Source of the DNA: Hyphomicrobiales bacterium
Lineage (GTDB): Bacteria; Pseudomonadota; Alphaproteobacteria; Rhizobiales; JAJFHB01
Direction of reading: 5' to 3'
Assembly (NCBI GenBank): GCA_021775755.1
Contig: JAJFHE010000039.1
Location: 186,001 to 250,000 of the forward strand
DNA: 64,000 bases
Below are positions 2,672 through 37,332 of this stretch, in pieces (positions within the stretch are counted from its first letter, which is position 1; each line of letters starts with the position of its first letter). The notes under the pieces are model-generated. The model worked only from the letters and a program-made list of their open reading frames with translations, did no database searches and had not been told where the DNA came from. The translations under genes and the position numbers were made by a program.

Positions 2672-2742
2672 TCGTTCCTCTTACATTCTATCAAGCGGAT
2701 GGCTATACGGATTGACGTTTCATTTCGTGGAATCTATAATAT

Positions 2743-2768: not shown

Positions 2769-2822
2769 ATGTAAATAAACAATTCGGCCCCCATGACGCT
2801 TCGCCAACAGTGAAATTACACG

Positions 2823-11002: not shown

Positions 11003-11624
11003 GTGGGGTGTTGTCACACTAACTGGATGGCCCGTCGCCAGCGGCTCAGTATCGTTGTCGGATGCAAAATGTTTCTTATACCCGACACCGATTCCCACCT
11101 GTGATCATTCAACATGCGGTATGGCGGCTCTGTCATCTATGGACACCCCCCTGATTGCAAGCGCTTTTTGAGGTGATAGGCGAGGTGGGTTTGCAGTCAT
11201 CTATCCGGCCTCTCGGTGCAGCATAGCGTTGCTGTGGGCCCTGATGGATTCCGAGGACCGACGCCCATCACAGTATCGAGCTTGTCGCCCTGAGGGATCT
11301 GGAACTCTCCACGCATCATGATTTCGGGGAAAGAAAAAACAACCGGGCCGAGAATTCTCAACTGCCAGCGCGGCGACGCGAACGACGAATGCAACTGTTC
11401 AAGTCAGCCAGTTCAGCGCAGCTATTCCTCTCACCACACGCCGCCATCTACAACACCTTCAACATTCAGCGTCATTTGATAGTCCGAAGAACATTGCGCC
11501 AGTTTTGCACGGGCGCAATGAGCGTATGGCAGGCCGTCACAGCCGGGGCGTGACCAGAACTGCTACGAAAAATTTATGTGTTCGCCGTTCAACAACGTGA
11601 CACCGCCATCCGTTCCACTATTTC
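11003..11624. other. Intergenic stretch with no supported gene
   Basis: About 620 bases without a convincing gene. A 65-codon minus-strand reading (11197-11394) has no recognised relative. Coding potential looks decayed, consistent with lying beside the IS6 remnant that follows. Confidence 0.4.
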
Positions 11625-11747
11625 AAAGACTCCGCCTGAGATTATCCGCCTCACGGTGATAATGTAGGTCCGCGTCCCCCTGTCATAGCGGCAAGTCTAA
11701 GATCTACTGTACGAGCGCGGGATTGACGTCAACTACGAGACCGTGCG
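11625..11747 (+). mobile_element. Decayed fragment of an IS6-family transposase gene (left of nar operon)
   Basis: This stretch aligns with the beginning of the IS6-family transposase remnant at 22331 onward (shared stretches include ATCCGCCT, CGGTGAT and CTACGAGACCGTGCG). Reading frame is lost and stops interrupt it. It ends 16 bases from the 3' end of the PPIase gene, at the distal edge of the nitrate reductase operon, in the same orientation as the larger remnant at the other edge. Confidence 0.65.
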
Positions 11748-11762
11748 TGCCTGACATGACCC

Positions 11763-22211: not shown

Positions 22212-22930
22212 GGCGTCGTTGCATAAACTGAAGATGGTGCGAGGCTCTGGGAGGGCGCTATCAGGGGAAACTGGCTTGAACCGGTGCATCTGATTTCATT
22301 GCGCCACCGGATGAGAACGCCCTTCCGTTCTTTCATATTTTCCCAGACATCATCCGCCTGGCGGTGATGAAGTTTGTGCACTTCCCCTGGTCGTTACGCC
22401 AGGTTGAAGATTTACTCTACCGTTGCAGAATTGACTTCAGCTACGAGACCGTGCGCTCCTTGTGGAACCGGTCCGGACCGATGTTCGCAGCAGAGATCAG
22501 AATGAGGCGATCAGCGCCGGTGCAAGACAAGACGCAGTGGCGTTGGCATCTGAATAATGTTTACGCGTGGATCAACGGTGAGGCCCACTACCTCTGGCGG
22601 GCCCTCGAAGCATTTGTCGCCAAGAAGCGAAATCACAAAGCCGCACTGACGTTCTCGAGGAAAGCAATGAAGCGGCACGGCCGGCTGGAATTGATCGTGA
22701 CCGACCGCCTTCGCTCCCAGACCGTTTCCATATGAACCCGAAACGGTCCAAGGTGCGGCGATGAACGCCATCGGGAATGCACAACTTCAACAGACCTGCC
22801 GTTGGCTGAACAATCGGACCGAAAACCGCCATCAACTGTTTCGACGACGGGAAACAGCGATGGCCAAGTTCAGACGCACCTCATGGCTTCAGAGGCGCAG
22901 TTTTGGACTGCTGGCAGAGGTCCGTCCCGA
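22212..22930 (+). pseudogene. IS6-family transposase remnant, frameshifted and 3'-truncated
   Basis: The left end GGCGTCGTTGCATAAACTG resembles IS6-type terminal repeats. From 22331 the plus strand encodes the start of an IS6/IS240-type transposase: FPDIIRLAVMKFVHFPWSLR, then YETVRSLW, then KTQWRWHLNNVYAWINGE (first DDE aspartate replaced by asparagine), then LELIVTDRLRS. The frame then breaks at an inserted hairpin (22720-22750) and continues in another frame from about 22761 as TCRWLNNRTENRHQLFRRRE and TSWLQRRSFG. The last about 30 residues and the right terminal repeat were not found. The element is inactive. Confidence 0.85.
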
Positions 22931-22995: not shown

Positions 22996-23628
22996 TCATT
23001 CTGTCAGTTGATGCTCAAGTTCATCGCGGCGATCAGGATGCTTTTCGCCTTCGCCATCGAGACGTGAAAGAAGGGCGACCATTTCGGTGATCATCTGAGC
23101 TTCGCGATTTATCGATTGGCGGAGATTGTGACGCAGCCCGACGCCATCGAACGTGAACATGATCATGTGTGCCAGAGCGAGAAAATCGACCGAAGATGCT
23201 GATTCTGACCTAAACGTGTCTGACAGGACTTGCGCGATTTTGTGCTCGGTCCAGCGCAGCAGTTCAGGATTGTATTTGTCCTGTGGCGTGGCGGTCGCGA
23301 GTGCCTGCACAAGGGTCGTTGTAAGTCCGCGGGTGTCGTGGGGAATGTATTTCCACAGTCCCTCAAGGAGGCTGGTGAGCTTCTGTTCAACGGTGGTCTT
23401 GTCCGCTACCGCTTGCTCCAGGTCCAGTATCTGACGTTTGAACCAGGGCTCATAAACAGCAAGAACGATCTCGAGCTTGGACTGAAAGTAGACGTAGACA
23501 TTCGACGGTGCGGTTCCGGCCCGCCGGGCAATCTTGCTTATCGTCGCTTTCACATAGCCGTTCTCGGCGAACTCCTGTTCCGCTGCCAGGAGAATGGCGT
23601 CATGCACAGCCTGTCTTTTTACCCGCAC
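22996..23628 (-). CDS. TetR-family regulator of the pyridine-type catabolic unit
   Basis: A 210-residue TetR regulator. The N-terminal DNA-binding domain (about 5-55) has the helix-turn-helix ATISKIARRAGTAPSNVYVYF; the remaining helices form the ligand domain, with no recognised ligand class. The start is GTG with a GAGG 12 bases upstream. It diverges from the NicX-like dioxygenase, and the 154-base gap holds two matching dyads bracketing a good promoter, so it most likely represses the downstream dioxygenase, hydroxylase and transporter genes until its inducer binds. Confidence 0.92.
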   Translation of the reverse strand: MRVKRQAVHDAILLAAEQEFAENGYVKATISKIARRAGTAPSNVYVYFQSKLEIVLAVYEPWFKRQILDLEQAVADKTTVEQKLTSLLEGLWKYIPHDTRGLTTTLVQALATATPQDKYNPELLRWTEHKIAQVLSDTFRSESASSVDFLALAHMIMFTFDGVGLRHNLRQSINREAQMITEMVALLSRLDGEGEKHPDRRDELEHQLTE

Positions 23629-23663
23629 CCGAATATACCTCAGTTATGGCTTTCCTATATTAG

Positions 23664-23676
23664 CGAACGTCATTCG
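23664..23676. promoter_or_regulatory. TetR operator dyad 1
   Basis: CGAA-CGTCA-TTCG, preceded by TAG. It lies 3 bases upstream of the -35 element and is repeated at 23711-23723. Assignment to the adjacent TetR protein is inferred. Confidence 0.68.
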
Positions 23677-23679
23677 GTA

Positions 23680-23708
23680 TTGACAAGGTGGTATTTGTAC
23701 ATTTTAAT
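23680..23708 (+). promoter_or_regulatory. Sigma-70 promoter of the dioxygenase unit
   Basis: TTGACA at 23680-23685, a 17-base spacer, and TTTAAT at 23703-23708 (five of six to consensus). It is flanked on both sides by the CGAA-N5-TTCG dyads, so repression by occupancy is likely. Transcript start would fall inside the second dyad, about 65 bases before the first gene. Confidence 0.72.
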
Positions 23709-23710
23709 AG

Positions 23711-23723
23711 CGAACATAATTCG
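23711..23723. promoter_or_regulatory. TetR operator dyad 2
   Basis: CGAA-CATAA-TTCG, again preceded by TAG and located at the predicted transcription start. The two dyads are offset by 47 bases and share TAGCGAAC at the left and ATTCG at the right. Confidence 0.68.
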
Positions 23724-23782
23724 TTTATGATCGGTGCTGGCATAACGAAAGACAATCCGGTCGATATTGAGGAGGGGATCCC

Positions 23783-24859
23783 ATGGAATCGTCAATCCGC
23801 ACGCAGGAAGTCAATCCGGCGAAAATGACCATGCTGTTCAAGAAGCAGTTTGAACTGTGCAAGGTCGAAGAAGGTCAAACGGTGGCGATCGTCTCTGATC
23901 TGGGCACGCGCCGCGAGTACATCCAGGCAGCTTTTGCGGCGGCCGACGAAATCGGCGTAGACATCTACGAGATGTGCGTCAACATGATCCCGGGCTGGAC
24001 GAAAGTCGGCGTGCCCACGATCGGCAAGTGCAAGGGCACTTTAGAAGCGCTGATGGCGTGCGACATGGTCCTGATTTTCCATGTACCGCTGTTTGCCGCC
24101 TGGCTCAGGAAGGTCATGGACAACAAGGTCCGCGTCCAGATGATTATCGATGCGCCTGACGATCTGGAGCAGTTGCAGTCGCCTCCGGGCCTGAAGGAAG
24201 CGGTGTTGCACGCGCACAAAATCTACGAGAACACCAAGGATATCCACGTTACCAGCAAGGCCGGTACCGACCTGCATTACTCGCGTGGCGAATATCCGGT
24301 GATGAGCCAGTACGGCATGGCAGATGAGCCCGGTCGCTTCGATCACTGGGGCGTCGGCCTCATTCACACCTTCCCGAACGAAGGCAGTTCCCGTGGAACC
24401 GTGGTCATTCAACCGGGCGACATCGTCATATTACCCTACTGTCGCTATGTGGTGGATCCCATCCACCTGACGATCGAAGAAGGCCATGTGACTAATATCG
24501 AAGGCGGCCTTGATGCTGCTTTGATGCGGGAATGGCTGAAAGACGGCGAAGATTTCGAAGGTGACCGGGACCCTTATGCCGTGTCGCATCTTGGCTGGGG
24601 CATGAACCCGCAGTGCCGGTGGGATTCGATTGCACTTTATGGCGATGGTCCCGAGCGCAGCCGCGCCGCCTCGCGCTGCTTCCCGGGCAACTTCCTGTTC
24701 TCCACCGGTCCGAACTCGCAAGGTGGCGGCAAGCGCACGACCCGGGGACACTACGACGTTCCGATGCGCGATTGCACGATTGCCGTGGATGGCAAGGTTG
24801 TTGTCGAAGAGGGGCGCCTCACGGATCCTAAGATGATTGTGCCACGGGTTCCGCGCTAA
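23783..24859 (+). CDS. NicX-like 2,5-dihydroxypyridine dioxygenase homologue
   Basis: A 358-residue protein of the NicX / aminopeptidase-T-like family. In Pseudomonas NicX, Fe(II) is held by His265, His318 and Asp320, and the enzyme opens 2,5-dihydroxypyridine to N-formylmaleamate. Equivalent residues are visible with nearly the same spacing: H269 (AVSHLGWGMNP), H323 and D325 (RGHYDVPM). The N-terminal half contains a Rossmann-like part (GQTVAIVSDLGTRREYIQAA). It is the first gene of a TetR-controlled unit with a molybdenum hydroxylase and a formamidase-like hydrolase, which supports a ring-cleaving role on a hydroxylated N-heterocycle. The exact substrate is open, since the family also includes annotated leucyl aminopeptidases. 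A GAGGAGGGG ribosome site precedes the ATG. Confidence 0.82.
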   Translation: MESSIRTQEVNPAKMTMLFKKQFELCKVEEGQTVAIVSDLGTRREYIQAAFAAADEIGVDIYEMCVNMIPGWTKVGVPTIGKCKGTLEALMACDMVLIFHVPLFAAWLRKVMDNKVRVQMIIDAPDDLEQLQSPPGLKEAVLHAHKIYENTKDIHVTSKAGTDLHYSRGEYPVMSQYGMADEPGRFDHWGVGLIHTFPNEGSSRGTVVIQPGDIVILPYCRYVVDPIHLTIEEGHVTNIEGGLDAALMREWLKDGEDFEGDRDPYAVSHLGWGMNPQCRWDSIALYGDGPERSRAASRCFPGNFLFSTGPNSQGGGKRTTRGHYDVPMRDCTIAVDGKVVVEEGRLTDPKMIVPRVPR

Positions 24860-24892
24860 ACTCGTACACAGATCAGATACGAGGAGCCGCCG

Positions 24893-26356
24893 ATGCGTCT
24901 GGACGGGAACTTTGAGGTCAACGCTCCCCGGACAGTTGTCTGGGAACGGATCACCGATCCAGCTTTGATGGTGGGTTGCATTCCTGGCTGTGAGGAAATC
25001 GAACAGGTCGATGCGAAAAACTACAAGGCAGTTGTCGCGGTTTCTCTTGGTATCATAAAAGCCAGATTCCACCTGGCTGTCCAGATCACCGGCGAAGATC
25101 CGCCCAATGCAATCCACGCCACTACCAGCGGTGAGGAAGGTACGCGGGCGAGCACGGTGTCGGCTGCAAACGTCGTTACCTTGAGTGAAGTTGCGCCCGA
25201 CAAGACCCGCGTTGAGTACGTATCGGAAGTTTCCCTGTCCGGCCGGCTAGGCAAGTACGGCCTCGGCATGATGCGCAAACGCGCAACTGCGATGAGCGAT
25301 GAATTTGCGGCGAACTTCAGGCGTAAACTCGAAGGTGCGCCTGAGCCCGCTACAGCCGCGGCGCCATCGAAGGGCGAAGGTGCACGATGGCGCGGTGTTT
25401 TAGGTTGGCTGGGCGTTGGTACTGCCACCGACCGGCCGGATGCGGGCGGTTCTGAAACCCGTTCGCCATCGTCCGAGCCAATGCAGTCGGCGCGCGTCAA
25501 TGCCGACCGGAGCGTGCTGCGGCCGGCAACAGTCGATGACGCCATCGGAATGCTGTCGGAGCGTGCTCAGTCCTATCCCCTGTCGGGCGGGGCAACCTTG
25601 ATAGCAATGAAGAATGCCGGGCTGGTCGACGCACAAAGGTTTGTGAGCCTGGAGGCGATCGAAGAATTGTGCGGCATCGAGCAACGCCCTGACGGAAGCA
25701 TTCGCATAGGCGCAATGGCCCGGCACCGCGATACCGCCGCGTGCGAGCATCTGACCGGCACGCTGGAAGTGGTGCGCCAGGCCGCGTCGGTTATCGCCAA
25801 TCCCGTGGTACGAAATATGGGAACGATAGGTGGATCGCTCGCCAACGCCGACCCTGCCGCCGACTACCTCCCGGCACTGGTCTGCACCGATGCCCAAGTT
25901 GAAATCGCCGGGGCACAGGGGCGCCGGCGCGTTGCGATCGGCGAGTTTCTCACGGACTGGTACACGACCGCGCTGGAAATGTCGGAGCTCATCACCGCGA
26001 TAGAACTTCCAGCCGCCCGGGGAGGCTATTCCGCCTACCGCAAAGTGGCGCGGGTGTCCGGGGATTTTGCGACTGCCTCCTGTGCTGTGTCGGCCAAGTT
26101 TGATGATCCGACACCGCGCGCAGGTCTCGCGATCGGTGCCTGCGGTCCTTATCCGGTTCGCGATCGTGCGGCCGAGAAGGTGCTGTCGGAGAGTGCGATG
26201 AACGATGATGATGTTGCGGCGTTTGCAGCGAGACTGGTGGCGCTCTCGGATCCGATCGATGATGTGCGCGGTAGTGCGGATTATCGGCGGCTTCTGATCC
26301 CACGACTTGTCGCGGAAGCTCTGGCGGGTCTGGCGGCCGGGCGGGAGGCTGCGTAA
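24893..26356 (+). CDS. CoxG domain fused to FAD subunit of a molybdenum hydroxylase
   Basis: A 487-residue fusion. Residues 1-148 are a CoxG/SRPBCC domain (MRLDGNFEVNAPRTVVWERI, then MVGCIPGCEEIEQVD). Residues 149-203 are a linker containing the hydrophobic stretch ARWRGVLGWLGVG. Residues 204-487 are the CoxM/CutM-type FAD-binding subunit, with SGGATLIAMKNAG (about 231) and VRNMGTIGGSLANADPAAD (about 306) contacting FAD. Normally CoxG is a separate protein thought to link molybdenum CO dehydrogenases to the membrane and quinone. Here it is covalently joined to the flavin subunit, the point where electrons leave the enzyme. It is followed with a one-base overlap by the Fe-S subunit. Confidence 0.9.
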   Translation: MRLDGNFEVNAPRTVVWERITDPALMVGCIPGCEEIEQVDAKNYKAVVAVSLGIIKARFHLAVQITGEDPPNAIHATTSGEEGTRASTVSAANVVTLSEVAPDKTRVEYVSEVSLSGRLGKYGLGMMRKRATAMSDEFAANFRRKLEGAPEPATAAAPSKGEGARWRGVLGWLGVGTATDRPDAGGSETRSPSSEPMQSARVNADRSVLRPATVDDAIGMLSERAQSYPLSGGATLIAMKNAGLVDAQRFVSLEAIEELCGIEQRPDGSIRIGAMARHRDTAACEHLTGTLEVVRQAASVIANPVVRNMGTIGGSLANADPAADYLPALVCTDAQVEIAGAQGRRRVAIGEFLTDWYTTALEMSELITAIELPAARGGYSAYRKVARVSGDFATASCAVSAKFDDPTPRAGLAIGACGPYPVRDRAAEKVLSESAMNDDDVAAFAARLVALSDPIDDVRGSADYRRLLIPRLVAEALAGLAAGREAA

Positions 26357-26832
26357 TGGCGGATCGCGAAAAGCTCAACCTGACGGTCAATAGCGACAAC
26401 GCAACGGTCGACGCGGATGCGGGTGCAACGTTACTCACAGTCTTGCGCGACGAGTTGCGGATCCTCAGTCCCAAGCGAGGCTGCAATCAAGGCGTATGCG
26501 GTTCCTGTACGGTGCTGATCGACGGGACACCGCAAAGATCCTGTCTGACACTGGCGGTCACTTGCGAGGGCAAACCTGTACAAACGGTCGATGGTTTCGA
26601 CGCCGATACGAAAATGGCTTTGCTGCGCGATCAGTTTCAGCAAAACGGAGCGGTTCAGTGCGGGTTCTGTACGAGCGGGATGCTGATTTCCGCCTGGCAT
26701 TTGCTGCAGGAAGACGGTGCCCTGTCCAGGGAGGACATTAACGCCGGCTTGTCTGGTAATCTCTGCCGTTGCACCGGGTATCAGAAGATCGTCGACAGCG
26801 TGGCTGCAGCCTCAAAGGAGGCTTCGTCATGA
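26356..26832 (+). CDS. [2Fe-2S] subunit of molybdenum hydroxylase (cluster 1)
   Basis: A 158-residue subunit with two [2Fe-2S] clusters, passing electrons from molybdopterin to FAD. The N-terminal plant-type cluster is in RGCNQGVCGSCTVLIDG with one more cysteine in RSCLTLAV. The C-terminal helical cluster is in VQCGFCTSGM and NLCRCTGYQK. Length is normal for the family. Its ATG overlaps the FAD-subunit stop by one base, and its own stop overlaps the start of the large subunit (ATGA). Confidence 0.95.
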   Translation: MADREKLNLTVNSDNATVDADAGATLLTVLRDELRILSPKRGCNQGVCGSCTVLIDGTPQRSCLTLAVTCEGKPVQTVDGFDADTKMALLRDQFQQNGAVQCGFCTSGMLISAWHLLQEDGALSREDINAGLSGNLCRCTGYQKIVDSVAAASKEASS

Positions 26833-29180
26833 CCGTTGAAAACTCAAAGACCGGGGTCACTGCGGGCGTTGTCGGCCATCCGGTCGCGAAACTCGACAGT
26901 GGCGAAAAAGTTATGGGGCGGTCCGAGTATATCGCCGATCTATACCGCCCGAACATGGTGCATGGTGCAGTTCTAGGCAGTGCCCATGCTCATGCCCGGA
27001 TCGTCAGCTACGACACGAGCGAAGCCGAAAAGGCGCCCGGTGTGGTCGCCGTTTTAACCGGTGATGACGTGGGCGAAGGGCGCATGGGCGCGTTCATCAA
27101 GGACGAACATGCAATCGCCAAGGGAAAGGTGCTCTATCTCGGCGAACCGGTTGCAGCGGTTGTCGCGGAGACCGAAGAACAGGCGCGCTCTGCGGTCCGG
27201 CTGATCAAGGTCGAGTATGAAGAGCTCGATGCGGTCCTGAGCCCGGAGGCGGGGTTGGCAAAGGACGCGCCGATCCTGCACGAAAACCTCGATGACTACT
27301 TCAAGGTTTTCGACACGGGTTCGGCCGGAAATCTGGCATCCCGTACGGTGTTCGAGGAAGGCGACGTCGAGGCCGCGTGGGAAAGCTGCGATGTCATTGT
27401 CGAAGGCGAGTACACCACGGAACCGCAGGCGCATGTTGCTATCGAACCCTGTGGGGCGCTGGCGGAAGTGGACGCTGGCGGGCGCGTCACCTTGTGGTCG
27501 GCAAATCAATCGGTGTTTCGTGTCCAGGCGAATGTTTGCGAATCACTCAGCCTGCCGATGACGCGACTGCGGTGTCTGACGCCCCGCGTAGGTGCGGGTT
27601 TCGGCAACAAGATGGAAGCCCATGTGCAGCCGATTACCGTGGCGTTGACGCTCAAGTGCGGCCGTCCGGTCAAACTCATTCTCACGCGCGAAGAAGATTT
27701 CGAAATTGTAAGGGCGCGCCATCCCTTCAAAATCCGCATGAAAACCGGCGCGAAGAAAGACGGCACTTTGATTGCAAGAAAGTGCGAAGTGCTGCTGGAC
27801 TGCGGCGCCTTCGCCGACGACAGTCCGGGCGTTCTTGGCTACAGCCTCTTGATGGCGCGGGGGCCCTACCGGATTGCCAATGTACGCAGCGAGGGCAAGC
27901 TTGTTTACACCAACAAAATGCGCTTCGGCGCCTATCGCGGCTTCGGCAATCCGCAGGTTACATTCGCCGGTGAACAGCAGATCGACGATATTGCCGAGCA
28001 GCTGAACATCGATCCGATAAAGCTGCGGCGCAAGAACATGACGCACGAAGGCGACCCGTGGTTTCTCGGCCAGGAAGTTCGCTCCAACGGGCTGAAGCAA
28101 TGTCTTGATGAGGTCGAAGCGCGCAGCAACTGGAAGAAACGAAACCAGGCTGCGCAAAGGCCGGGCGTGAAACGGGGAACCGGTATCGCGGTCGCGGCGC
28201 ACATTTCCGGCCTTCTTGGCACGGGTGCGATTGTGCGCATGCTCGAAGACGGTTCGATTTCACTCAACACCGGGGCGACCGATATCGGCCAGGGATCCGA
28301 TACCGTGCTGGCACAGATTTGTGCGGAGACCTTAAAGGTTCCGCTCGAGAACGTATTTGTTTCGAGCCCCGACACGGACGGGTCACCTTACAACTGGGGA
28401 ACGACGGCGAGCCGGGTGACCTATACGACGGGCCGTGCCGTTGCGGCGGCCTCGGCAGATGTTGAAAAGCAGGTCAAAGAGCACGCGGCGCAAATGCTTG
28501 ACTGCGACATCGGCGATCTGGAATTGCGCGATGGCGGCCGCGTCGGCATCGTTGGCTCGAACACCGATCTGCCGTTCTTCGCAGTATCCGCCCACGCGCA
28601 TTGGGCAGTCGGTGGACCGTTGGTCGGCACCAGCACGCTTGTGTTTGAGCGAGATACCCTGGATCCCAAGCGCGCGGTGGCGCAGGGCCTGCCGTTCCCG
28701 CGCATCGGTGTCATGAGCTTCAGTGCGGTCGTGACCGAGGTTGAAGTCGACGAGGTGACGGGGCAGGCGAGGGTCGTGGAGGCGTGGTCCGCTGCCGATG
28801 TCGGCCGGGCAATAAACCCGCAGCTAGTTGAAGTGCAACTGGAAGGCGGGTTTCTTCAGGGAATGGGCTTTGCGCTTTATGAGGAAATGGTTTGGGACGG
28901 TGCGCGGCTCGCCAATCCATCGCTCATGGACTACAAGATTCCAACGACGCGCGACGCCCCCGGCGTGGTCCACCCGATCATTGTCGAAGCACCTGAACCC
29001 GATGGCCCCTTCGGCGCCAAGGGGGCAGGCGAGATTTGTATCAATGCCGTGCCGGCCTCGATCGCCAATGCGGTTGAGGATGCGACAGGTTTCCGTCACC
29101 GCAGTTTGCCGATGACCTCTGAGCGCGTGTTGCGGGGGATGATGAGCGCAGACAAAACTTCCGGGGAGGAGGCGTCGTGA
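26829..29180 (+). CDS. Molybdopterin-binding large subunit of molybdenum hydroxylase (cluster 1)
   Basis: A 783-residue catalytic subunit of the xanthine oxidase family. The ATG at 26829 overlaps the Fe-S stop and has an AAGGAGG site; an in-frame ATG at 26769 lies inside the Fe-S gene and is rejected. Visible features are the ab-hammerhead domain (about 15-130), molybdopterin motifs RVGAGFGNKMEAH and RFGAYRGFGNPQ, the Q-loop DIGQGSDTVLAQI, and the catalytic glutamate in FGAKGAGEICIN. The CO-dehydrogenase signature with S-selanylcysteine (AYxCSFR) is absent, so it should hydroxylate an organic ring, plausibly an N-heterocycle feeding the NicX-like dioxygenase. Substrate is inferred from neighbours only. 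Confidence 0.93.
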   Translation: MTVENSKTGVTAGVVGHPVAKLDSGEKVMGRSEYIADLYRPNMVHGAVLGSAHAHARIVSYDTSEAEKAPGVVAVLTGDDVGEGRMGAFIKDEHAIAKGKVLYLGEPVAAVVAETEEQARSAVRLIKVEYEELDAVLSPEAGLAKDAPILHENLDDYFKVFDTGSAGNLASRTVFEEGDVEAAWESCDVIVEGEYTTEPQAHVAIEPCGALAEVDAGGRVTLWSANQSVFRVQANVCESLSLPMTRLRCLTPRVGAGFGNKMEAHVQPITVALTLKCGRPVKLILTREEDFEIVRARHPFKIRMKTGAKKDGTLIARKCEVLLDCGAFADDSPGVLGYSLLMARGPYRIANVRSEGKLVYTNKMRFGAYRGFGNPQVTFAGEQQIDDIAEQLNIDPIKLRRKNMTHEGDPWFLGQEVRSNGLKQCLDEVEARSNWKKRNQAAQRPGVKRGTGIAVAAHISGLLGTGAIVRMLEDGSISLNTGATDIGQGSDTVLAQICAETLKVPLENVFVSSPDTDGSPYNWGTTASRVTYTTGRAVAAASADVEKQVKEHAAQMLDCDIGDLELRDGGRVGIVGSNTDLPFFAVSAHAHWAVGGPLVGTSTLVFERDTLDPKRAVAQGLPFPRIGVMSFSAVVTEVEVDEVTGQARVVEAWSAADVGRAINPQLVEVQLEGGFLQGMGFALYEEMVWDGARLANPSLMDYKIPTTRDAPGVVHPIIVEAPEPDGPFGAKGAGEICINAVPASIANAVEDATGFRHRSLPMTSERVLRGMMSADKTSGEEAS

Positions 29181-30007
29181 GGATATCGGACTATCCGCCC
29201 CAGGAAGCCTTCACAGCGATTGGCGAGCGCTATCACGAAGAGGTTCTGTCTCGCGCGGGGAACGTGCCCGGTGAAGACATCTCATATGGCGCCGACGCCT
29301 ATCAGTCACTGTGCGTCTATAGCGCCGCCGAGCCCAATGGAGATGTCTTGTGTTTCATGCATGGCGGCGGCTGGACGAACGGCTACAAGGAATGGATGGC
29401 GTTTATGGCGCCGGCGATAACCGGGCGCGGCGTGACATTTGTGAGCCTGGGATACAGACTTGCCCCGGCGCATGTGTTTCCCAAAGGGTTTGACGACTGC
29501 TGCGACGGCATCGCCGGGGTATATGAGCATGTCGCCAGGTTCGGCGGCGACGGCAACCGTATCTTCGTCGGCGGGCATTCCGCGGGCGCTCACTATGCAT
29601 CGCTTCTGGCGCTGCGGGCTGATTGGCAGTCGCCGCGGAACCTGCCCACTGATGTGATCAAGGGAGCATTGCCGGTTTCCGGCACATATTCCTTTGGTCC
29701 TGGCTCCGGGCTCTCCATGCGGCCCCGGTTTCTCGGACCGGAAGAAAATGGTGCAGACGAAGCCGCATCGCCAACGACCCATGTACACAAATCGGCACCG
29801 CCATTTCTTATCAGCTATGGCGAGGAGGACTTTCCGCACCTTGTCCGGCAGGCAGGTGAATTTGCAGATCTGTTGAAGCGCGCAAGCGTTGGCGTGCAGG
29901 TCATGCAACTTGCAGGTTGCGATCACCTCGGCGCGAGTTATGCGACCGGCGATGTGGATGGCGTGTGGATCAAAGGGGCGAGAGATTTCATGAGTTCTAT
30001 GCAGTAA
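29177..30007 (+). CDS. Formamidase-like alpha/beta hydrolase
   Basis: A 276-residue alpha/beta hydrolase resembling bacterial kynurenine formamidases (BD-FAE-like). The oxyanion motif HGGGW is at 62-66, the nucleophile S135 is in GGHSAGAH, and the triad is completed by an acid near D218 (YGEEDFP) and H250 (CDHLG). The start is GTG overlapping the large-subunit stop, with a strong GGAGG site. Position after a NicX-like dioxygenase suggests that it removes the N-formyl group from a ring-cleavage product, the step done by NicD in nicotinate breakdown. NicD is also an alpha/beta hydrolase, but this protein looks closer to the kynurenine formamidase branch. Function is an inference. Confidence 0.82.
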   Translation: MRISDYPPQEAFTAIGERYHEEVLSRAGNVPGEDISYGADAYQSLCVYSAAEPNGDVLCFMHGGGWTNGYKEWMAFMAPAITGRGVTFVSLGYRLAPAHVFPKGFDDCCDGIAGVYEHVARFGGDGNRIFVGGHSAGAHYASLLALRADWQSPRNLPTDVIKGALPVSGTYSFGPGSGLSMRPRFLGPEENGADEAASPTTHVHKSAPPFLISYGEEDFPHLVRQAGEFADLLKRASVGVQVMQLAGCDHLGASYATGDVDGVWIKGARDFMSSMQ

Positions 30008-30075
30008 ATGTCATCGAAACAGTGCACTAAACAGCACGAAACCGGCCAAAGAGCCGACAACCACGGAGGGAAGCA

Positions 30076-31239
30076 ATGAAGTATCTGTTATCACTCGTTA
30101 CAGCGCTGGCACTAGGTGTGCTGGCTGTGGCGGCAAATGCGGCAGAGCCTGTGCGCATTGGCTATTCGATTGCGAAGACCGGACTGTTTTCGCAGGCCGC
30201 GCCATCGCAAATCACCGCCTATGAGCTTTGGGCATCACAGGTCAATGCGGCGGGTGGCCTTGATGTCGCCGGTGAGCAGCGTCCCGTTGAGCTCGTCTGG
30301 TACGACGACGAATCCGATCCGGCAAAAGCCGCTCAAATATACGAGAAGCTGATTTCCGACGACGGCGTCGATCTTCTGCTTGCACCCTGGGGCACACCGC
30401 ACCACCTCAACGTTGCCGGTGTCGTTGAAAGCCATGGATTTCCGATGGTCGGCAACACCGCTGCATCGGTTGCGATCCGTGAAGTGCAGCCCGGCAACAT
30501 CTGGTTTCCGACATCTGCCATTCCGGACAAGATCGGTACAGAGCTTGCAGCACTTGCAAAGTCAGCCAACGTGACTTCCGTGGCGATCATTGCCAACGTA
30601 CTGCCGTTCGCTCAGGAGAATCTGCAATTCCTCGTGCCGGCGCTTGAAGCACAGGGCATCGAGGTGAAAGTCAACGAAAGCTACCCGCCGGACATTTCCG
30701 ACATGACGGCGCTGCTGACGCGGATCAAGAGTTCAGGCGTCGATGGGGTTATTGCGCTGTCTTACCCTGCGGACTCGTTTCTCTATATGGGGCAGGCCAA
30801 GGAGTTGGGCATCGATCAACCGTTCCAGTTCCTTCTCGTCGGGCCGACAATCGCCGCGTTCCAGGGAGCCTTTGGTGAAGTGGCCAACGGTATCGTTACG
30901 CTTGGCCACTGGAGCCCGCATCAGGCCGCGTGGCCGAAGGGCAAAGCGTTCTTCGACGCCTATGTTGAAGCGAACGGCATGGCCCCGGATTATCTCGACT
31001 CCGCCCTTGCTTACATGTCGTGTGAAATTCTGCAGCAGGCGGTTGCCGTTGCCGGACTGGACCGGGACAAGCTTCGCGAGGCGATCTCGTCCTCAACGTT
31101 CGACACGATCAACGGGCCGGTCCGCTTCGAAGGTGTTGAAAACGTCGTTACCCCCACTGCGTTCCTGCAGTTGCAGGGCGGCGACATGCATCTGGTCTGG
31201 CCTGCGGAAGCTGCAACCTCGCAGTATCAGCCTCGCTGA
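30076..31239 (+). CDS. HAAT-family ABC transporter substrate-binding protein
   Basis: A 387-residue periplasmic binding protein of the branched-chain amino acid/amide (LivJ/LivK) type. The signal peptide ends near residue 22 (VAANAAEP). The mature protein starts PVRIGYSIAKTGLFSQAAPSQ and has the two-lobe Peripla_BP_6 fold, with the lobe-1 ligand region in LLLAPWGTPHHLNVAGVVE. It has a strong GGAGG site. It begins the transporter part of the TetR unit and is followed by a stable hairpin and then both permeases and both ATPases. The ligand is probably the aromatic or heterocyclic growth substrate rather than leucine, judging from the neighbours. Confidence 0.92.
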   Translation: MKYLLSLVTALALGVLAVAANAAEPVRIGYSIAKTGLFSQAAPSQITAYELWASQVNAAGGLDVAGEQRPVELVWYDDESDPAKAAQIYEKLISDDGVDLLLAPWGTPHHLNVAGVVESHGFPMVGNTAASVAIREVQPGNIWFPTSAIPDKIGTELAALAKSANVTSVAIIANVLPFAQENLQFLVPALEAQGIEVKVNESYPPDISDMTALLTRIKSSGVDGVIALSYPADSFLYMGQAKELGIDQPFQFLLVGPTIAAFQGAFGEVANGIVTLGHWSPHQAAWPKGKAFFDAYVEANGMAPDYLDSALAYMSCEILQQAVAVAGLDRDKLREAISSSTFDTINGPVRFEGVENVVTPTAFLQLQGGDMHLVWPAEAATSQYQPR

Positions 31240-31264
31240 GACCAGGTAACTCAACGTTGAAACA

Positions 31265-31294
31265 GGGGCCGGTGCTTTAGAAAGCACCGGCCCC
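31265..31294 (+). terminator. 14-bp perfect hairpin between binding-protein and permease genes
   Basis: GGGGCCGGTGCTTT, a two-base gap, then AAAGCACCGGCCCC: a perfect GC-rich stem 26 bases after the binding-protein stop. No T-run follows, so it is probably an mRNA-stabilising or attenuating structure that keeps binding-protein levels above those of the permease genes, as known for other periplasmic-binding-protein operons. Confidence 0.8.
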
Positions 31295-31334
31295 GCCCAA
31301 CACGGCTGGACCGGCGCACAGGGAGGACGCAACG

Positions 31335-32222
31335 ATGGATATCCTGTTTTCCCCTCAGCTTCTGTTTTCAGCACTGGTGCTTGGAGCTCTCTACGCGCTT
31401 ATCGCGCTGGGCCTCAATCTGGTCTACGGCACGATGCGTCTGCTTAACATTGCCCACGGCGATCTGGTGATGATCGGCGCTTATGCTGCGTTCTGGCTGT
31501 TTACCCTCACCGGCATATCGCCGCTCATTGGGTTGCCGGTCATTGCCGTTTTGACGGCGGGTGTCGGCGTGGCGCTCTATTCGGTGCTGTTTCGGGGGCA
31601 GCTTGAAGGCACCCAATCCGTCGCGCAGCTTGAAGCGAACTCGCTCCTGCTGTTTTTCGGTATCTCCGTCGTTCTGCAAAACGTCATGGCGCTCGCGTTC
31701 ACCGCGTCACCGCGCGCCTATCGGCACCTCGACGATGTGTATCACGTGGCCGGCGTTGCCATGACGGGCAACCGCGTCGCAACATTGCTTATTGCTGTTC
31801 TGGTGCTGGCGGGCGTTGTCATATTTCTGAAAAGCACAATCTACGGGCTCGCGGTTACCGCCCTCATTCAAAGCCGCGATGCCGCGAAAGTTGTCGGAAT
31901 CAACGTTTCGCAGGTGCAAGTGGGCAGCTTTGCGCTTGGGTTCGGTGTCGCCGGCATCGCGGGAGCACTCATCAGCATGGCGGAGCAGATATCTCCGTTT
32001 ATGGGTTTTCCGTTCACCATCGCGGCCTTTGTCGTCATCATCCTTGGGGGGCTTGGAAACATTGCCGGAGGCATTATCGCCGGTGTCCTCTTAGGCTTCA
32101 TCGAAATCTACGCCGTGGCCCTCACGTCGGCGACCTATCGCTCCATTCTGCTCTACGGCATCTTTGTCGGTGTCCTCTTGATCCGTCCGCAGGGACTGTT
32201 CGGAAAGACGAGGGGCGGATGA
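31335..32222 (+). CDS. livH: HAAT ABC transporter permease (LivH type)
   Basis: A 295-residue inner membrane permease of the LivH family with about eight hydrophobic segments. Typical sequences are ALYALIALGLNLVYGTMRLL near the N-terminus, the AxxxGxN-like region ALIQSRDAAKVVGIN (about 176-190), and FTIAAFVVIILGGLGNIAGG near the C-terminus. It pairs with the LivM-type gene that overlaps its stop (ATGA). It forms the membrane channel for the ligand bound by the product of 30076-31239. Confidence 0.94.
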   Translation: MDILFSPQLLFSALVLGALYALIALGLNLVYGTMRLLNIAHGDLVMIGAYAAFWLFTLTGISPLIGLPVIAVLTAGVGVALYSVLFRGQLEGTQSVAQLEANSLLLFFGISVVLQNVMALAFTASPRAYRHLDDVYHVAGVAMTGNRVATLLIAVLVLAGVVIFLKSTIYGLAVTALIQSRDAAKVVGINVSQVQVGSFALGFGVAGIAGALISMAEQISPFMGFPFTIAAFVVIILGGLGNIAGGIIAGVLLGFIEIYAVALTSATYRSILLYGIFVGVLLIRPQGLFGKTRGG

Positions 32223-33142
32223 AAGAGATAACCCGCAACTGGCCGTTCCTGGGATGTCTGCTTGTACTTGCCGGTGCCGGCATCGCGACACCGCATCTCT
32301 TTGGTGCCTACTGGACCCTCGTCGCGCTGAACCTTGCGATGTGGATTGCGCTGACTCAGAGCTGGACACTGTTCTCCGGTATGACCGGATACATTTCGCT
32401 CGGCCACGTCGTGTTCTATGGCATTGGCGCTTACGTCGTCGTCGCGACCTTCAAGACGGTGCCGCTATGGATTTCCGTCCCCATGGGAGGCGTTGTCGCG
32501 GCGCTCTTTGCACTCATCGTGGCGCTGCCGGTGCTCAGGGTGCGGGGCCCCTACTTTGTCATACTGACGTTCGGCGTCGCGGAGCTCGTCAAGTTCATTA
32601 TTCTCAATATTGAGACCGGGCTCGGCAAATCGAGCCGGTTGCTGTTCGGCGCGCCGGGAGCCCAGACATTGCTCTACGTCATGATCTGTCTTGCCATTGC
32701 AGCAAGCGGCCTGACGCTGTTCGCCAAGGTATCGCGCTTTGGGCGCGGGCTGACGGCGATCCGGGAGGATGAAACGGCAGCAGAAACGGTGGGCATTCCG
32801 GTCGCGCGCTACAAGGTCATCGCCTTTGCCGCCTCGGCTGCAATTCCCGGCATGGTCGGCGGCCTTATGGCGCTGCGTTCGACTTACTTCGAAGTGCTGC
32901 AGGTGTTCAACCCGATCGTCTCCTTCACCATTGTCACCATGGCGATCATTGGTGGCAGTGGCGATGCGCGCGGGCCGCTGTTCGGCGCGGCGTTCATGGT
33001 CGGCCTGTCGGAGCTCTTGTGGGCCAATGCACCACGGCTTTACATGATCCTTCTGGGACTGTTTCTCGTCGGCTTCGTCGTATTCGCGCCAAGCGGGCTT
33101 GTCGGCCTGCTCGCACGCCGTGGCAGGGAGACGTCGGCATGA
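32219..33142 (+). CDS. livM: HAAT ABC transporter permease (LivM type)
   Basis: A 307-residue second permease, recognised by WTLFSGMTGYISLGHVVFYG in the N-terminal third, the coupling helix region TAIREDETAAETVGIPVARYK (about 178-198) and IIGGSGDARGPLFGAAF near the C-terminus. About nine hydrophobic segments. Overlaps livH by four bases at its start and the ATPase gene by four at its end. Confidence 0.94.
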   Translation: MKEITRNWPFLGCLLVLAGAGIATPHLFGAYWTLVALNLAMWIALTQSWTLFSGMTGYISLGHVVFYGIGAYVVVATFKTVPLWISVPMGGVVAALFALIVALPVLRVRGPYFVILTFGVAELVKFIILNIETGLGKSSRLLFGAPGAQTLLYVMICLAIAASGLTLFAKVSRFGRGLTAIREDETAAETVGIPVARYKVIAFAASAAIPGMVGGLMALRSTYFEVLQVFNPIVSFTIVTMAIIGGSGDARGPLFGAAFMVGLSELLWANAPRLYMILLGLFLVGFVVFAPSGLVGLLARRGRETSA

Positions 33143-33870
33143 GCCTCCTGATCGCAGATGGCATCGGCAAATCGTTCGGTGGGCTGAGGGCGCTGGCGGG
33201 TGTTTCATTTGCCGTCGACGAGGGGGAAATTGTCGGCCTAATGGGAGCGAACGGCGCCGGCAAGACAACACTGTTCAGTATAATCGCGGGACATCAGCGC
33301 GCCAGCGAGGGCGCCATCCGGTTCAAGGGCGCCTCAATTTCGGGGTTACGCCCGGATCAGGTCTGCCGTCTCGGCATCGCGAGGACGTTTCAGATCGTGC
33401 GCCCGTTTGCCGGTTTGAGTGCACGCGATAATGTCGAGACCGCCCTGCTGTTTGGAGGTGCTCAGCAAAGTGCTTCCGCGAAGGTTTCCGATCGCGCGAT
33501 GGAAATCCTGGAAGAAGTCGGACTTGTGGATCAATGGCAAAAGCCCGCCGGTGCGATGACGCTGTCGGGGCGTAAACGCCTGGAGGTGGCGCGTGCGCTG
33601 GGCACGGCACCTGAACTTCTGTTGCTCGATGAAGTGATGGCGGGTCTTACGCCGGCGGAAGTTGCGGAAATGCTGGAGACTTTGCGATCGGTTAAGCGGG
33701 GCTACAATTTGACGATTGTGATCATTGAGCATGTGGTTCGTGCGCTTGTCGAACTCTCCGACCGGATCATCGTGTTGCATCATGGCGAATTGATCGCAGA
33801 GGGCGCGCCGGCAGATATCGCCAAGGACAAGTCCGTGCGTGCGGTCTATTTCGGCGAGGAAGATGCATGA
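33139..33870 (+). CDS. livG: HAAT ABC transporter ATPase (LivG type)
   Basis: A 243-residue ATP-binding subunit. Walker A is GANGAGKTTL (about 36-45), the signature is LSGRKRLEVARAL and Walker B is ELLLLDEVMAGL; the signature LSGRK rather than LSGGQ is common in LivG. The LivG-specific RTFQIVRPFAGLSARDNVETA is present. The start is the ATG at 33139, which overlaps the livM stop; a longer frame reaching 33019 is rejected because it lies wholly in livM. The protein is slightly short for LivG (about 255). Confidence 0.94.
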   Translation: MSLLIADGIGKSFGGLRALAGVSFAVDEGEIVGLMGANGAGKTTLFSIIAGHQRASEGAIRFKGASISGLRPDQVCRLGIARTFQIVRPFAGLSARDNVETALLFGGAQQSASAKVSDRAMEILEEVGLVDQWQKPAGAMTLSGRKRLEVARALGTAPELLLLDEVMAGLTPAEVAEMLETLRSVKRGYNLTIVIIEHVVRALVELSDRIIVLHHGELIAEGAPADIAKDKSVRAVYFGEEDA

Positions 33871-34580
33871 GCGCAATCCTGCAAGCCAGAGAGCTGGTGT
33901 CGGGGTACGGCGATGTGCGTATTCTGCACGCCGTCGATCTGAGTGTTGCGGAGGGCGGGATCACCGCGGTACTCGGATCGAACGGTGCCGGCAAAACGAC
34001 GCTGTTTCGGACGCTTGCCGGCCTGCTCGCAGCTGGCGCGGGGCACATAGAATTTTGCGGTTCGCCTATCGAAACGCTGCCGTCGCATGTCCGCGTTGAA
34101 CGCGGCGTGGTTCTGGTGCCGGAAGGACGGCTCGTGTTCCCTGACATGAGTGTTGAGGAAAATCTGCGCATCGGTTCCGTGAACGCGCGTGCGCGTTCTA
34201 AATGCAGCAAGACATTGTCTACGGTCTATGACCTCTTCCCCCGCCTCGACGAGCGCCGTTCGCAAGCGGCCGGCACGCTGTCAGGTGGCGAGCAGCAGAT
34301 GCTTGCGCTGGGGCGCGGCCTGATGGCGTTGCCGAAGGTGCTGCTCTTGGACGAGCCGACGCTTGGGCTGGCACCGACGATGGCTAAGCAAATTTTCGAA
34401 ATCATCCCAAACCTTGTTGAACTGGGACTTTCTATCCTGATTGCCGAACAGGATGTGCACCGGACCCTGCAATGCGCCCAGTTTGGATACGTGCTGGAAA
34501 ACGGCAAGGTTGCCGTCAGTGGAACGGGGCCCGAGCTCATGCAGACACCCGCCGTTTCGGAAGCCTTTCTGGGTCACTAG
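33867..34580 (+). CDS. livF: HAAT ABC transporter ATPase (LivF type)
   Basis: A 237-residue second ATPase. Walker A is GSNGAGKTTL (about 32-41), the signature LSGGEQQMLALGRGLM and Walker B VLLLDEPTLGLAP, all as in LivF. It overlaps livG by four bases and ends the transporter operon. The following 400 bases contain no gene but hold repeats and a hairpin. Confidence 0.94.
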   Translation: MSAILQARELVSGYGDVRILHAVDLSVAEGGITAVLGSNGAGKTTLFRTLAGLLAAGAGHIEFCGSPIETLPSHVRVERGVVLVPEGRLVFPDMSVEENLRIGSVNARARSKCSKTLSTVYDLFPRLDERRSQAAGTLSGGEQQMLALGRGLMALPKVLLLDEPTLGLAPTMAKQIFEIIPNLVELGLSILIAEQDVHRTLQCAQFGYVLENGKVAVSGTGPELMQTPAVSEAFLGH

Positions 34581-34984: not shown

Positions 34985-35995
34985 TCAGGCGCGGGGATCG
35001 ATCACCACTTTGCCCAGGACTTTCCTGCCGGTGAGTTCGTCGAACGCGGCGGCGAATTCTCCAAGCGGATAGCGCGCCCAGATGTTGGCGCGGAGCTTGC
35101 CATCGGCCGCCAGTGCGATCCAGGAGTTCGCGCCGCGGGCCATTTCGCCGTAGGCCATGTCGAAATGGATGTCGAGCGGTGCGCCCATGACACTGAGGTT
35201 GTTGTAGAGCAGGTAGTTGGCCTTTGCCGTCGGAATCGCACCACCGGCAAAACCGACGATCACCAGCTTGCCGGCGAAGCGGAGCACGCGCAGGCTCGCC
35301 TCGAACATGTCGCCGCCCACCATGTCGATGACCACGTCGCAGCCGCGCCCTTCGGGCGCGCCGGTGGCGGCGCTGATCTGCGCTTTCAGGTGGGTCTTGA
35401 GGGTGTCCGCGTCTGCGGCATTGGTGTCGACGAGGAAGTCTGCGCCATTGTCTTTTGCGAGTTTGCCCTTTTCGTCGCTGGACACCGCGGCAATCACGGT
35501 TGCGCCGCGCGCCTTGCAGAGCTGGGTTGCCGCCGTGCCGACCCCGCCCGCGGCTCCGGTGATCATGACCGTGTCGCCGGCCTTGACCCCGGCACGGATA
35601 TCCACGGCGACCCAGGCAGTGTTGAAGACAGTGATCATTGCCGCGGCATCGTCGAACGGAACGCTCTTCGGAAGGGCAAAACATCGTTTTTCGGGCGCGG
35701 GAACAAGTTCCGCGAATGCGCCTTTGAAGACCTGGGCGACGACGCGGTCACCGGGCTTGAAGCCGCTCACTCCGGCGCCTACCGCCTTGACGATGCCGGC
35801 GCAGTCGCGGCCTGGCACAAAGGGCTGTTCGGGCCGTTTTTGGTATTTTCCCTGCAACATCAGCGCATCGGGGAAGTTGATGCCGATGGCATGGTTTTCG
35901 ATGAGAACTTCGCCTTCGCCCGGTTCCGGATCGGCGATGCTTTCGACCGTGTGTGATGCGACCGGTCCGAACTCATTGACAACGACAGCGCGCAT
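34985..35995 (-). CDS. Zinc-free MDR-family NADPH:quinone/enoyl reductase
   Basis: A 336-residue medium-chain reductase of the quinone oxidoreductase type. The N-terminal GroES-like domain (MRAVVVNEFGPVASHTVE to about 120) lacks structural-zinc cysteines. The Rossmann domain has MITGAAGGVGTAATQLCKA (about 145) for NADPH, and later NYLLYNNLSVMGAPL, common in this group. It is the last gene of the minus-strand molybdenum hydroxylase operon, 9 bases after the Fe-S gene, and probably reduces a quinone or an unsaturated intermediate of the same pathway. Confidence 0.9.
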   Translation of the reverse strand: MRAVVVNEFGPVASHTVESIADPEPGEGEVLIENHAIGINFPDALMLQGKYQKRPEQPFVPGRDCAGIVKAVGAGVSGFKPGDRVVAQVFKGAFAELVPAPEKRCFALPKSVPFDDAAAMITVFNTAWVAVDIRAGVKAGDTVMITGAAGGVGTAATQLCKARGATVIAAVSSDEKGKLAKDNGADFLVDTNAADADTLKTHLKAQISAATGAPEGRGCDVVIDMVGGDMFEASLRVLRFAGKLVIVGFAGGAIPTAKANYLLYNNLSVMGAPLDIHFDMAYGEMARGANSWIALAADGKLRANIWARYPLGEFAAAFDELTGRKVLGKVVIDPRA

Positions 35996-36004
35996 GTCCG
36001 CCTC

Positions 36005-36517
36005 CTAACGTGCTTCCGCCTTGCTGGTGCGCAGCGCGGCGGCAGCGTCGATGCAGGCATTGATGATCTCGTGATAGCTGGTGCAGCGGCAGACATTGCC
36101 GCTGAGGGCGACCTTGATCTCGTCCACGCTCGGGTCCGGGTTGTCTTGCAGGAATTCGCTCAGGGACATGAGTATGCCAGGTGTGCAGAAGCCGCATTGC
36201 AGGGCGAAATTCTCATGAAAGGCCTGCTGAAGAATGCCGAAGCTGCCATCGGCGTTGGCGAGCCCTTCGATGGTGTCGATCTCGGCGCCATCGGCTTGCA
36301 CCGCGAGCATCAGGCAAGACCGGCTGGCAGTACCGTCGATCAGGATGGTGCAGGCACCGCAGACGCCGTGCTCGCAGCCGACATGGGTGCCGGTGGCGCC
36401 GACCTCGTGGCGCAGGAAGTCGCTCAGGAGCATGCGTGGTTCGGAGAAGCCCTCGACCGTGACGCCGTTCAGCCGGAACGTCACGTGATGGCGGCTGTCG
36501 CGGGAGAGGTTTTTCAA
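36005..36517 (-). CDS. [2Fe-2S] subunit of molybdenum hydroxylase (cluster 2)
   Basis: A 170-residue two-cluster Fe-S subunit. The plant-type cluster is in GCEHGVCGACTILIDG with a further cysteine in RSCLMLAVQ; the helical cluster is in LQCGFCTPGIL and VCRCTSYHE. The N-terminus has about 8 extra polar residues before the conserved VTFRLNGVTVEGF. The ATG overlaps the stop of the FAD gene. Gene order (large, FAD, Fe-S) differs from cluster 1 (FAD, Fe-S, large), so the two clusters are not a recent local duplication. Confidence 0.95.
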   Translation of the reverse strand: MKNLSRDSRHHVTFRLNGVTVEGFSEPRMLLSDFLRHEVGATGTHVGCEHGVCGACTILIDGTASRSCLMLAVQADGAEIDTIEGLANADGSFGILQQAFHENFALQCGFCTPGILMSLSEFLQDNPDPSVDEIKVALSGNVCRCTSYHEIINACIDAAAALRTSKAEAR

Positions 36518-37332
36518 CGGGCGGTCTCCTCGATTACCTTACGGCCCAGGTGCCGCACCAATTGCCGACGGTATTGCGCGGTCGCATGGATGTCGTCATT
36601 GCCGCCGAGTTCCCAGGCGAGGTCATTGAGGGCATCGTCGATTGCCGAGCCCTCAAGGCCCGTCCAGTGGCGTACTTCCGGACGGTCGGCAACGCCTCCG
36701 ACGGCCAGGCTTATTCGTGCGCCTTCGCTTCTTGCGGCAACCGCAACGACGGCGAAATCGCCATGGCGATGGTTGAATTCGTCAAAAGCGTAAGCCGCCC
36801 CGTTCGAGGCGGCGGGAAACACCACGTTCGTCGCCAACTCGTCCGCCTCGCGGGCCGTGTTCAGGACGCCTTGCTGAAAGTCGGAGGCCGGGACACGCCG
36901 CGCCCCCCGATCGCTGCGCAGCTCGACCTCGCCCTCCAGGAGTGCGAGGCATAGTGGCAGTTCCGATGAAGGATCGGCATGGCAGATCGAGCCGCACACG
37001 GTGCCCCGATTGCGTGTTTGAAAGTGGCCCACATTCGGGAGGGCTCTGGCAATGAGGGGCAAATCGGGTTCCAGCCCTACCCAGATGGCCAGCGCACCCT
37101 GGGTAACGCCGGCGCCAATGCGGACGCCGCTACCAGTCTTCTCGAGCTGCTTCAATTCGTCGAGCCGGGAAATGTCGATGAGGACTTCAGGTCGGACCAG
37201 ACGCATGTTCAGCATGGGAAGCAACGACTGTCCGCCGGCGATCACCCGTGCGTCGTCGCCATATTCGCCAAGTACGCCGATGGCCTCGTCGACGCTATCG
37301 GGCCGTATGTAGTCGAAGGGAGCAGGCTTCAT
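36514..37332 (-). CDS. FAD-binding subunit of molybdenum hydroxylase (cluster 2)
   Basis: A 272-residue CoxM/CutM-type flavin subunit of ordinary length, without the CoxG domain seen in cluster 1. FAD contacts are in VIAGGQSLLPMLNMRLVRP (about 31-49) and NRGTVCGSICHADPSSELP (about 109-127). The C-terminal domain follows from about 170. The ATG overlaps the stop of the large-subunit gene by four bases, and it lies 5' of the Fe-S gene with a four-base overlap. Confidence 0.94.
   Translation of the reverse strand: MKPAPFDYIRPDSVDEAIGVLGEYGDDARVIAGGQSLLPMLNMRLVRPEVLIDISRLDELKQLEKTGSGVRIGAGVTQGALAIWVGLEPDLPLIARALPNVGHFQTRNRGTVCGSICHADPSSELPLCLALLEGEVELRSDRGARRVPASDFQQGVLNTAREADELATNVVFPAASNGAAYAFDEFNHRHGDFAVVAVAARSEGARISLAVGGVADRPEVRHWTGLEGSAIDDALNDLAWELGGNDDIHATAQYRRQLVRHLGRKVIEETAR

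Follow-up and report, generated by a model that had tools for sequence, protein, structure and literature searches.

A TetR-linked operon with a Gln-type NicX-like dioxygenase as a candidate pathway for N-heteroaromatic breakdown in a Hyphomicrobiales bacterium

We analysed a 64,000-nucleotide stretch of DNA from a Hyphomicrobiales bacterium (the window, equal to C33:186001-250000 in a genome of 5.47 Mb on 77 contigs) and, within it, the gene cluster at positions 22996-34580, in which a NicX-like dioxygenase gene lies beside genes for a molybdenum hydroxylase, an alpha/beta hydrolase and an importer. In our judgment there is an even chance that this cluster is a TetR-repressed, inducible catabolic operon for an N-heteroaromatic compound of the 3-hydroxypyridine type, with its hydroxyl group beta to the ring nitrogen, and that the ring it opens is probably not 2,5-dihydroxypyridine. 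What was computed for the locus is its gene content, conserved synteny, an operator motif, and the fold, iron ligands and Glu-to-Gln switch of the dioxygenase. An earlier note on this DNA had described the cluster from its letters. Its eleven open reading frames (ORFs) are indeed intact, in the order and on the strands given there, and Pfam profiles matched every tested protein except the dioxygenase. A minus-strand TetR gene is divergent from a ten-gene plus-strand run that starts with the dioxygenase gene. Several genes of this run begin at or within the preceding stop codon, and this tight packing is consistent with a single operon.

The only significant solved relative of the dioxygenase is NicX (7cn3, E 8.6e-66). 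Its AlphaFold2 model, with a mean predicted local distance difference test score (pLDDT) of 85.5, matches NicX over its full length (Z 44.7, root-mean-square deviation 1.9, 340 residues). In NicX, iron is held by H265, S302, H318 and D320, with R293 positioning D320 (PMC7910607). The equivalents in the window enzyme are H269, S307, H323 and D325, with R298 in the supporting place, and all five are invariant in 81 close relatives. The earlier note had correctly picked out H269, H323 and D325, but had missed the fourth ligand and the arginine. It had also allowed for the ligands lying apart in a predicted structure; superposition of the model on NicX, rather than measured distances, places them together.

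The substrate pocket is where the window enzyme departs from characterized NicX. The substrate contacts of NicX are E177 (N1 and O1 of 2,5-dihydroxypyridine), H189 (O1) and L104/H105, and its E177A variant keeps 2.7% of activity (PMC7910607). With so little activity surviving that replacement, the residue matters in NicX, and a Gln there may alter the choice of substrate. The window enzyme has Q176, H188, L103 and F104 at these positions. Gln stands at position 177 in this protein and in 81 of 81 close relatives (hereafter Q-type), and Glu in NicX and all 22 distinct E-type sequences, including the annotated NdpE of a nicotine cluster; a tree separates the two types with full support. E-type nicX genes with nicF or nicD/E as neighbours occur in, among others, Azospirillum, Rhizobium, Mesorhizobium, Shinella, Salipiger and Variovorax. 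Since the residue that contacts the ring N and O1 is Gln, not Glu, throughout the subfamily, we conclude that the Q-type enzymes form a distinct NicX subfamily, which probably acts on a different 5-hydroxy-2-pyridone-type ring and not on 2,5-dihydroxypyridine in its unsubstituted form. The earlier suspicion of a substrate other than that of the nicotinate pathway thus gains a residue-level basis. The H105-to-Phe change was also considered as a specificity marker and was dropped, since Phe is present in nicF-linked NicX proteins and in the annotated NdpE as well. A search of plasmid records for a near Q-type homologue whose substrate is known gave nothing above 60% identity.

A third NicX type has Ile, Val or Thr at position 177 and His at position 105, and includes the source genome's own paralogue at C30:143 kb. 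At that locus (L083, G000:C30:134000-148279), it is linked to genes for an alpha/beta hydrolase and a protein resembling acyl-CoA dehydrogenase (8955-12063). Ensifer adhaerens also has a third-type nicX-like gene, adjoined by a glutamine-synthetase-family gene. In a separate case (L012, 3013-5286), two Q-type nicX genes stand in tandem, 55% and 83% identical to the window protein.

The dioxygenase keeps the same company across distant bacteria. A scan of named genomes gave 80 relatives with 63-87% identity in alpha-, beta- and gammaproteobacteria. Among the 53 with at least 9 kb of downstream sequence, the hydrolase is present in 39, the same molybdenum hydroxylase (at least 55% identity) in 30, the same binding protein in 31, and all three in 29; the gene set is kept across alpha- and betaproteobacteria. 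Being retained in dozens of genomes, the arrangement is far beyond chance, and this synteny bears out the proposal that hydroxylase, hydrolase and dioxygenase act together, with the adjacency of nicX and hydrolase coupling two steps. Ten loci have the hydrolase directly after nicX with no molybdenum-enzyme genes between, so that nicX and hydrolase appear to be the core pair and the molybdenum hydroxylase one of several feeding routes; at other loci, nicX accompanies a different molybdenum enzyme and a NicC-like monooxygenase. In Ruegeria lacuscaerulensis HKCCD5857 (L006), a single stop codon interrupts the nicX-like frame, and the remaining operon is intact.

The hydrolase has the motifs HGGGW and GHSAG (nucleophile S135) and a C-terminal His (H250), its catalytic motifs are kept in 16 relatives, and its predicted model has a pLDDT of 92. 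Its best solved relatives are general HSL-type esterases, and the fold search is too general to name a substrate. As for the kynurenine formamidase branch, to which the earlier note had likened it, these comparisons do not tell that branch apart from such esterases. Compared with NicD of Azospirillum, Salipiger and Variovorax, it gave no match at E 1e-5. That its gene follows nicX supports a role in processing the ring-opened product, from which it would remove a formyl group. Some Burkholderiales have a different second alpha/beta hydrolase after the HAAT genes of their Q-type operon (L170, 912-1844; L171, 1415-2320). The HAAT importer in the window is complete, with a binding protein, two permeases and two ATPases. 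Judged by binding-protein sequences, a ribose-type (CUT2) importer replaces it in three Q-type clusters (L033, L038 and L067), hinting at a glycosylated substrate there.

Regulation by the divergent TetR protein was likewise part of the earlier description, and it is now backed by a conserved operator. The gap between the TetR gene and nicX is 154 bases long and contains two copies of the palindrome TANCGAA-N5-TTCGNTA, which is present in 40 of 42 homologous intergenic regions. These hold 45 sites, where 2.0 would be expected after shuffling, a count that is supportive rather than a probability, given that the motif was derived from the same related sequences. A whole-genome scan that allowed one mismatch or none found only six places, and this gap accounts for two. 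A perfect match at C13:107040 was discarded, being within an unrelated ORF. The TetR protein is predicted to bind the palindrome and thereby to control a substrate-inducible operon.

The molybdenum hydroxylase belongs to the xanthine oxidase family and has a fused FAD subunit, in which Pfam places a CoxG domain at residues 5-146 and the flavin adenine dinucleotide (FAD) domains at residues 208-478. The earlier note had not recognised the combination of such a pathway with this fusion. The fusion is real but a minor feature: by an in-frame test it occurs in 3 of 38 relatives, and CoxG is a separate adjacent gene in the other 35 (counts based on ORF extension overstated fusions). CoxG recruits CO dehydrogenase to the membrane, from where electrons pass to quinone (PMC4240915). 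A CoxG protein also anchors an archaeal glycerol-3-phosphate dehydrogenase, and a homologue has been proposed as the membrane anchor of 3-hydroxypyridine dehydrogenase, an N-heteroaromatic hydroxylase (PMC11962113). The window protein is therefore a variant of a reported architecture, in which two genes that usually lie side by side have been joined sporadically. Two matches from Ensifer adhaerens plasmids were tried as the cluster of this dehydrogenase (HpdA) and rejected, the nicX-like one being of the third type beside an acyl-CoA dehydrogenase and the molybdenum-enzyme one lying in a purine-type cluster. The molybdenum cofactor (MoCo) subunit has its catalytic Glu in PFGAKGAGE. It lacks the active-site Cys loop AYxCSFR of CO dehydrogenase, with GAYRGFG at that place, and scores 302 bits against the CO dehydrogenase profile TIGR02416, for which 991 are needed.

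Taken together, these parts suggest a pathway for which we infer the order of reactions, the route of electrons and the removal of the acyl group. The HAAT importer would take up the N-heteroaromatic. The molybdenum hydroxylase, docked at the membrane by its CoxG domain and passing electrons to the respiratory chain, would place a water-derived oxygen on the alpha carbon to give a 5-hydroxy-2-pyridone-type ring. The NicX-like Fe(II) enzyme would then use O2 to cleave the C5-C6 bond, yielding an N-formyl (or N-acyl) amide, and the alpha/beta hydrolase would take off the acyl group.

The strongest challenge to an altered substrate is that the ring is 2,5-dihydroxypyridine after all, a possible but somewhat doubtful alternative. 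Conversion of 3-hydroxypyridine to 2,5-dihydroxypyridine and on to N-formylmaleamate is a documented route (PMC6525221), and a four-part hydroxylase with CoxG, separate in 35 relatives, fits what is reported for 3-hydroxypyridine dehydrogenase. Deformylation would then give maleamate, which would pass to unlinked NicF-like and maleate-isomerase-like enzymes. The source genome encodes such a pair at C30:13.2-14.6 kb, where a NicF homologue (E 9.7e-73 to 3ot4/3uao, which we take to be the NicF structure) adjoins a maleate-isomerase-like (NicE-like) gene, as would suit a maleamate product. The earlier note was right that NicC, NicF and NicE are missing from the cluster, which has no NicD either, but the search of the rest of the genome that it called for turned up NicF- and NicE-like genes elsewhere. 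That region (L099, G000:C30:3000-22900) has an HpaB-like flavin monooxygenase gene, the NicF homologue and the maleate-isomerase-like gene in a row at 8760-11614 (C30:11.7-14.6 kb), and no nicX. On a Peribacillus plasmid, HpaB, racemase, isochorismatase, hydrolase and nicX genes are found together.

Further observations also count against a changed substrate. A close NicF is encoded somewhere in 18 of the 32 genomes holding a Q-type gene, and at a few loci a NicC-like monooxygenase is encoded close to Q-type nicX, again recalling the nicotinate pathway. Gln is also present in a more remote homologue from Rhodococcus, encoded in a Rieske-dioxygenase cluster that includes genes of the isochorismatase and Asp/Glu racemase families. 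The Glu-to-Gln change could merely tune the binding of 2,5-dihydroxypyridine, and the activity of the Q-type members is itself a prediction from sequence and model. However, Gln is fixed at this position in the whole subfamily, the hydrolase is not of the NicD type, and NicF lies within 10 kb of Q-type nicX in only 1 of 80 loci (L005). A close NicF is missing from 10 of the 32 Q-type genomes, although two of these ten are incomplete metagenome-assembled genomes and one, a Ruegeria, has a broken nicX-like gene; in several other genomes, the NicF homologue is solitary. The operator motif did not rise above chance in the NicF/NicE-like region of C30 or around the nicX paralogue. In addition, nine genomes have an E-type nicX directly beside nicF, apart from their Q-type cluster, and because one genome holds both, the two systems suggest two substrates. 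A maleamate route is thus possible, but with NicF rarely linked and the C30 region lacking an operator above chance, it is indicated neither by linkage nor by this TetR protein. We put the case for a different substrate somewhat ahead of that for 2,5-dihydroxypyridine.

A further reading, in which the importer and the molybdenum enzyme have some other role (for example in aldehyde, purine or coenzyme A (CoA)-ester oxidation) and the ring opened by the NicX-like enzyme is not a pyridine but, say, a diazine or a fused heterocycle, is unlikely. Among solved structures, 4-hydroxybenzoyl-CoA reductase (1rm6) is nearest to the MoCo subunit, followed by quinoline 2-oxidoreductase (1t3q) and 6-hydroxypseudooxynicotine dehydrogenase (7dqx), and the Glu-to-Gln change would allow for another ring. 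However, hydroxylated pyridines are the substrates of the dioxygenase's known relatives, and the nicX-hydrolase pair and the conserved operon indicate one pathway. An M29-family aminopeptidase in a peptide-utilisation operon, the peptidase outcome that had been foreseen for the first gene, is hardly credible: the next fold matches after NicX are the M29 enzymes AmpT, PepS and AmpS (Z about 22) and plasmid homologues are annotated 'leucyl aminopeptidase' or 'peptidase M29', but the fit to NicX is much closer, with every iron ligand kept, those 'leucyl aminopeptidase' genes are located in nic clusters, and the M29 profile PF02073 matched neither this protein nor anything in the whole genome in a search that was positive in control genomes.

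The distribution of the operon points to horizontal transfer. Close copies were present in only 2 of 60 order-level relatives, and a same-family copy is 69% identical to the window dioxygenase, whereas betaproteobacterial Variovorax copies are 78-81% identical; an IS240-type DDE transposase remnant lies immediately upstream of the TetR gene (window 22364-22735). NicX has been reported to act specifically on 2,5-dihydroxypyridine, and known enzymes that open N-heterocyclic rings are few. It could fall either way, but the Gln-type NicX may represent a new ring-cleaving specificity, and the operon a pathway, so far undescribed, for an N-heteroaromatic that is common in nature, disseminated horizontally through alpha-, beta- and gammaproteobacteria. 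A conserved, regulated and widespread operon with a systematically altered pocket offers a defined place to seek novel ring-opening chemistry, and its invariant Glu/Gln switch offers a one-residue handle on specificity. Because many homologues are labelled aminopeptidases in databases, the pathway has been largely hidden.

The features of the cluster are listed in Table 1; an Rfam search of the window gave no match. Its surroundings also hold candidate catabolic genes. A second molybdenum hydroxylase is encoded on the minus strand at 34985-40328; its 999-aa MoCo subunit has CoxG as a C-terminal fusion, and a quinone-oxidoreductase-like gene adjoins. Divergent from it, on the plus strand at 40454-45137, are genes for hydantoinase/oxoprolinase A and B and for an alpha/beta hydrolase, and this region looks like another N-heterocycle or lactam pathway. 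About 16 kb upstream of the cluster, at 1063-7101, creatininase-family, AMP-ligase and amidase genes suggest a region for the catabolism of nitrogen compounds.

Table 1. Features of the candidate N-heteroaromatic operon, in window coordinates
Feature	Position	Strand	Basis
TetR/AcrR-family repressor	22996..23628	-	PF00440 E 2.8e-13; in most relatives, TetR homologue next to nicX or divergent from it
Palindromic operator 1 (predicted), TAGCGAACGTCATTCGGTA	23661..23679	.	perfect fit to TANCGAA-N5-TTCGNTA
Palindromic operator 2 (predicted), TAGCGAACATAATTCGTTT	23708..23726	.	one mismatch to TANCGAA-N5-TTCGNTA
NicX-like Fe(II) ring-cleavage dioxygenase, Q-type (H269, S307, H323, D325; Q176)	23783..24859	+	7cn3 E 8.6e-66; AlphaFold2 model; residue survey
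CoxG (SRPBCC) domain fused to FAD subunit, xanthine-oxidase-family hydroxylase	24893..26356	+	PF06240, PF00941, PF03450
2Fe-2S subunit of hydroxylase	26356..26832	+	PF01799, PF00111
Molybdopterin (MoCo) subunit of hydroxylase	26829..29180	+	PF02738, PF20256; 1rm6, 1t3q, 7dqx nearest solved
Alpha/beta hydrolase, HSL/BD-FAE type, proposed deformylase/deacylase	29177..30007	+	PF07859, PF20434
HAAT periplasmic substrate-binding protein	30076..31239	+	PF13458 E 9.7e-57
HAAT permease 1	31335..32222	+	PF02653
HAAT permease 2	32219..33142	+	PF02653
HAAT ATPase 1 (LivG-like)	33139..33870	+	PF00005, PF12399
HAAT ATPase 2 (LivF-like)	33867..34580	+	ORF; homologue syntenic in relatives

Several known systems share parts of this operon. 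Aerobic CO dehydrogenase has the same xanthine-oxidase-family subunits and CoxG docking, but the window hydroxylase is without its active-site Cys loop and does not reach its profile cut-off. The HpdA cluster is said to carry accessory phosphoenolpyruvate-utilising and pyruvate-phosphate dikinase genes, and none were seen in the window operon. HpdA itself, the 3-hydroxypyridine dehydrogenase of Ensifer adhaerens HP1, is reported (Wang et al. 2020, AEM 86:e01313-20, as cited in PMC11962113) to be a four-component molybdenum hydroxylase with a CoxG homologue; the window enzyme has the same four parts (CoxG/SRPBCC, FAD, 2Fe-2S and MoCo), encoded by four genes in most relatives, a likeness judged by components. 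Plasmid-borne nic clusters of Azospirillum, Rhizobium, Roseomonas and Pseudosulfitobacter in some cases have a TetR gene beside nicX and an alpha/beta hydrolase, like the window, and a HAAT importer flanks a complete nic cluster in Azospirillum. However, those clusters carry most or all of nicC, nicD, nicE and nicF with an E-type nicX, whereas the window has none of these linked. With NicX of Pseudomonas putida KT2440 and the 2,5-dihydroxypyridine 5,6-dioxygenases NdpE/Hpo, the window enzyme has in common the full-length fold, the four iron ligands, R298, L103 and H188, at about 36% identity. It differs from them in having Gln for the substrate-contacting Glu177, in forming its own clade, and in the linkage of its gene to a different hydrolase and a molybdenum hydroxylase rather than to NicC, NicF and NicE.

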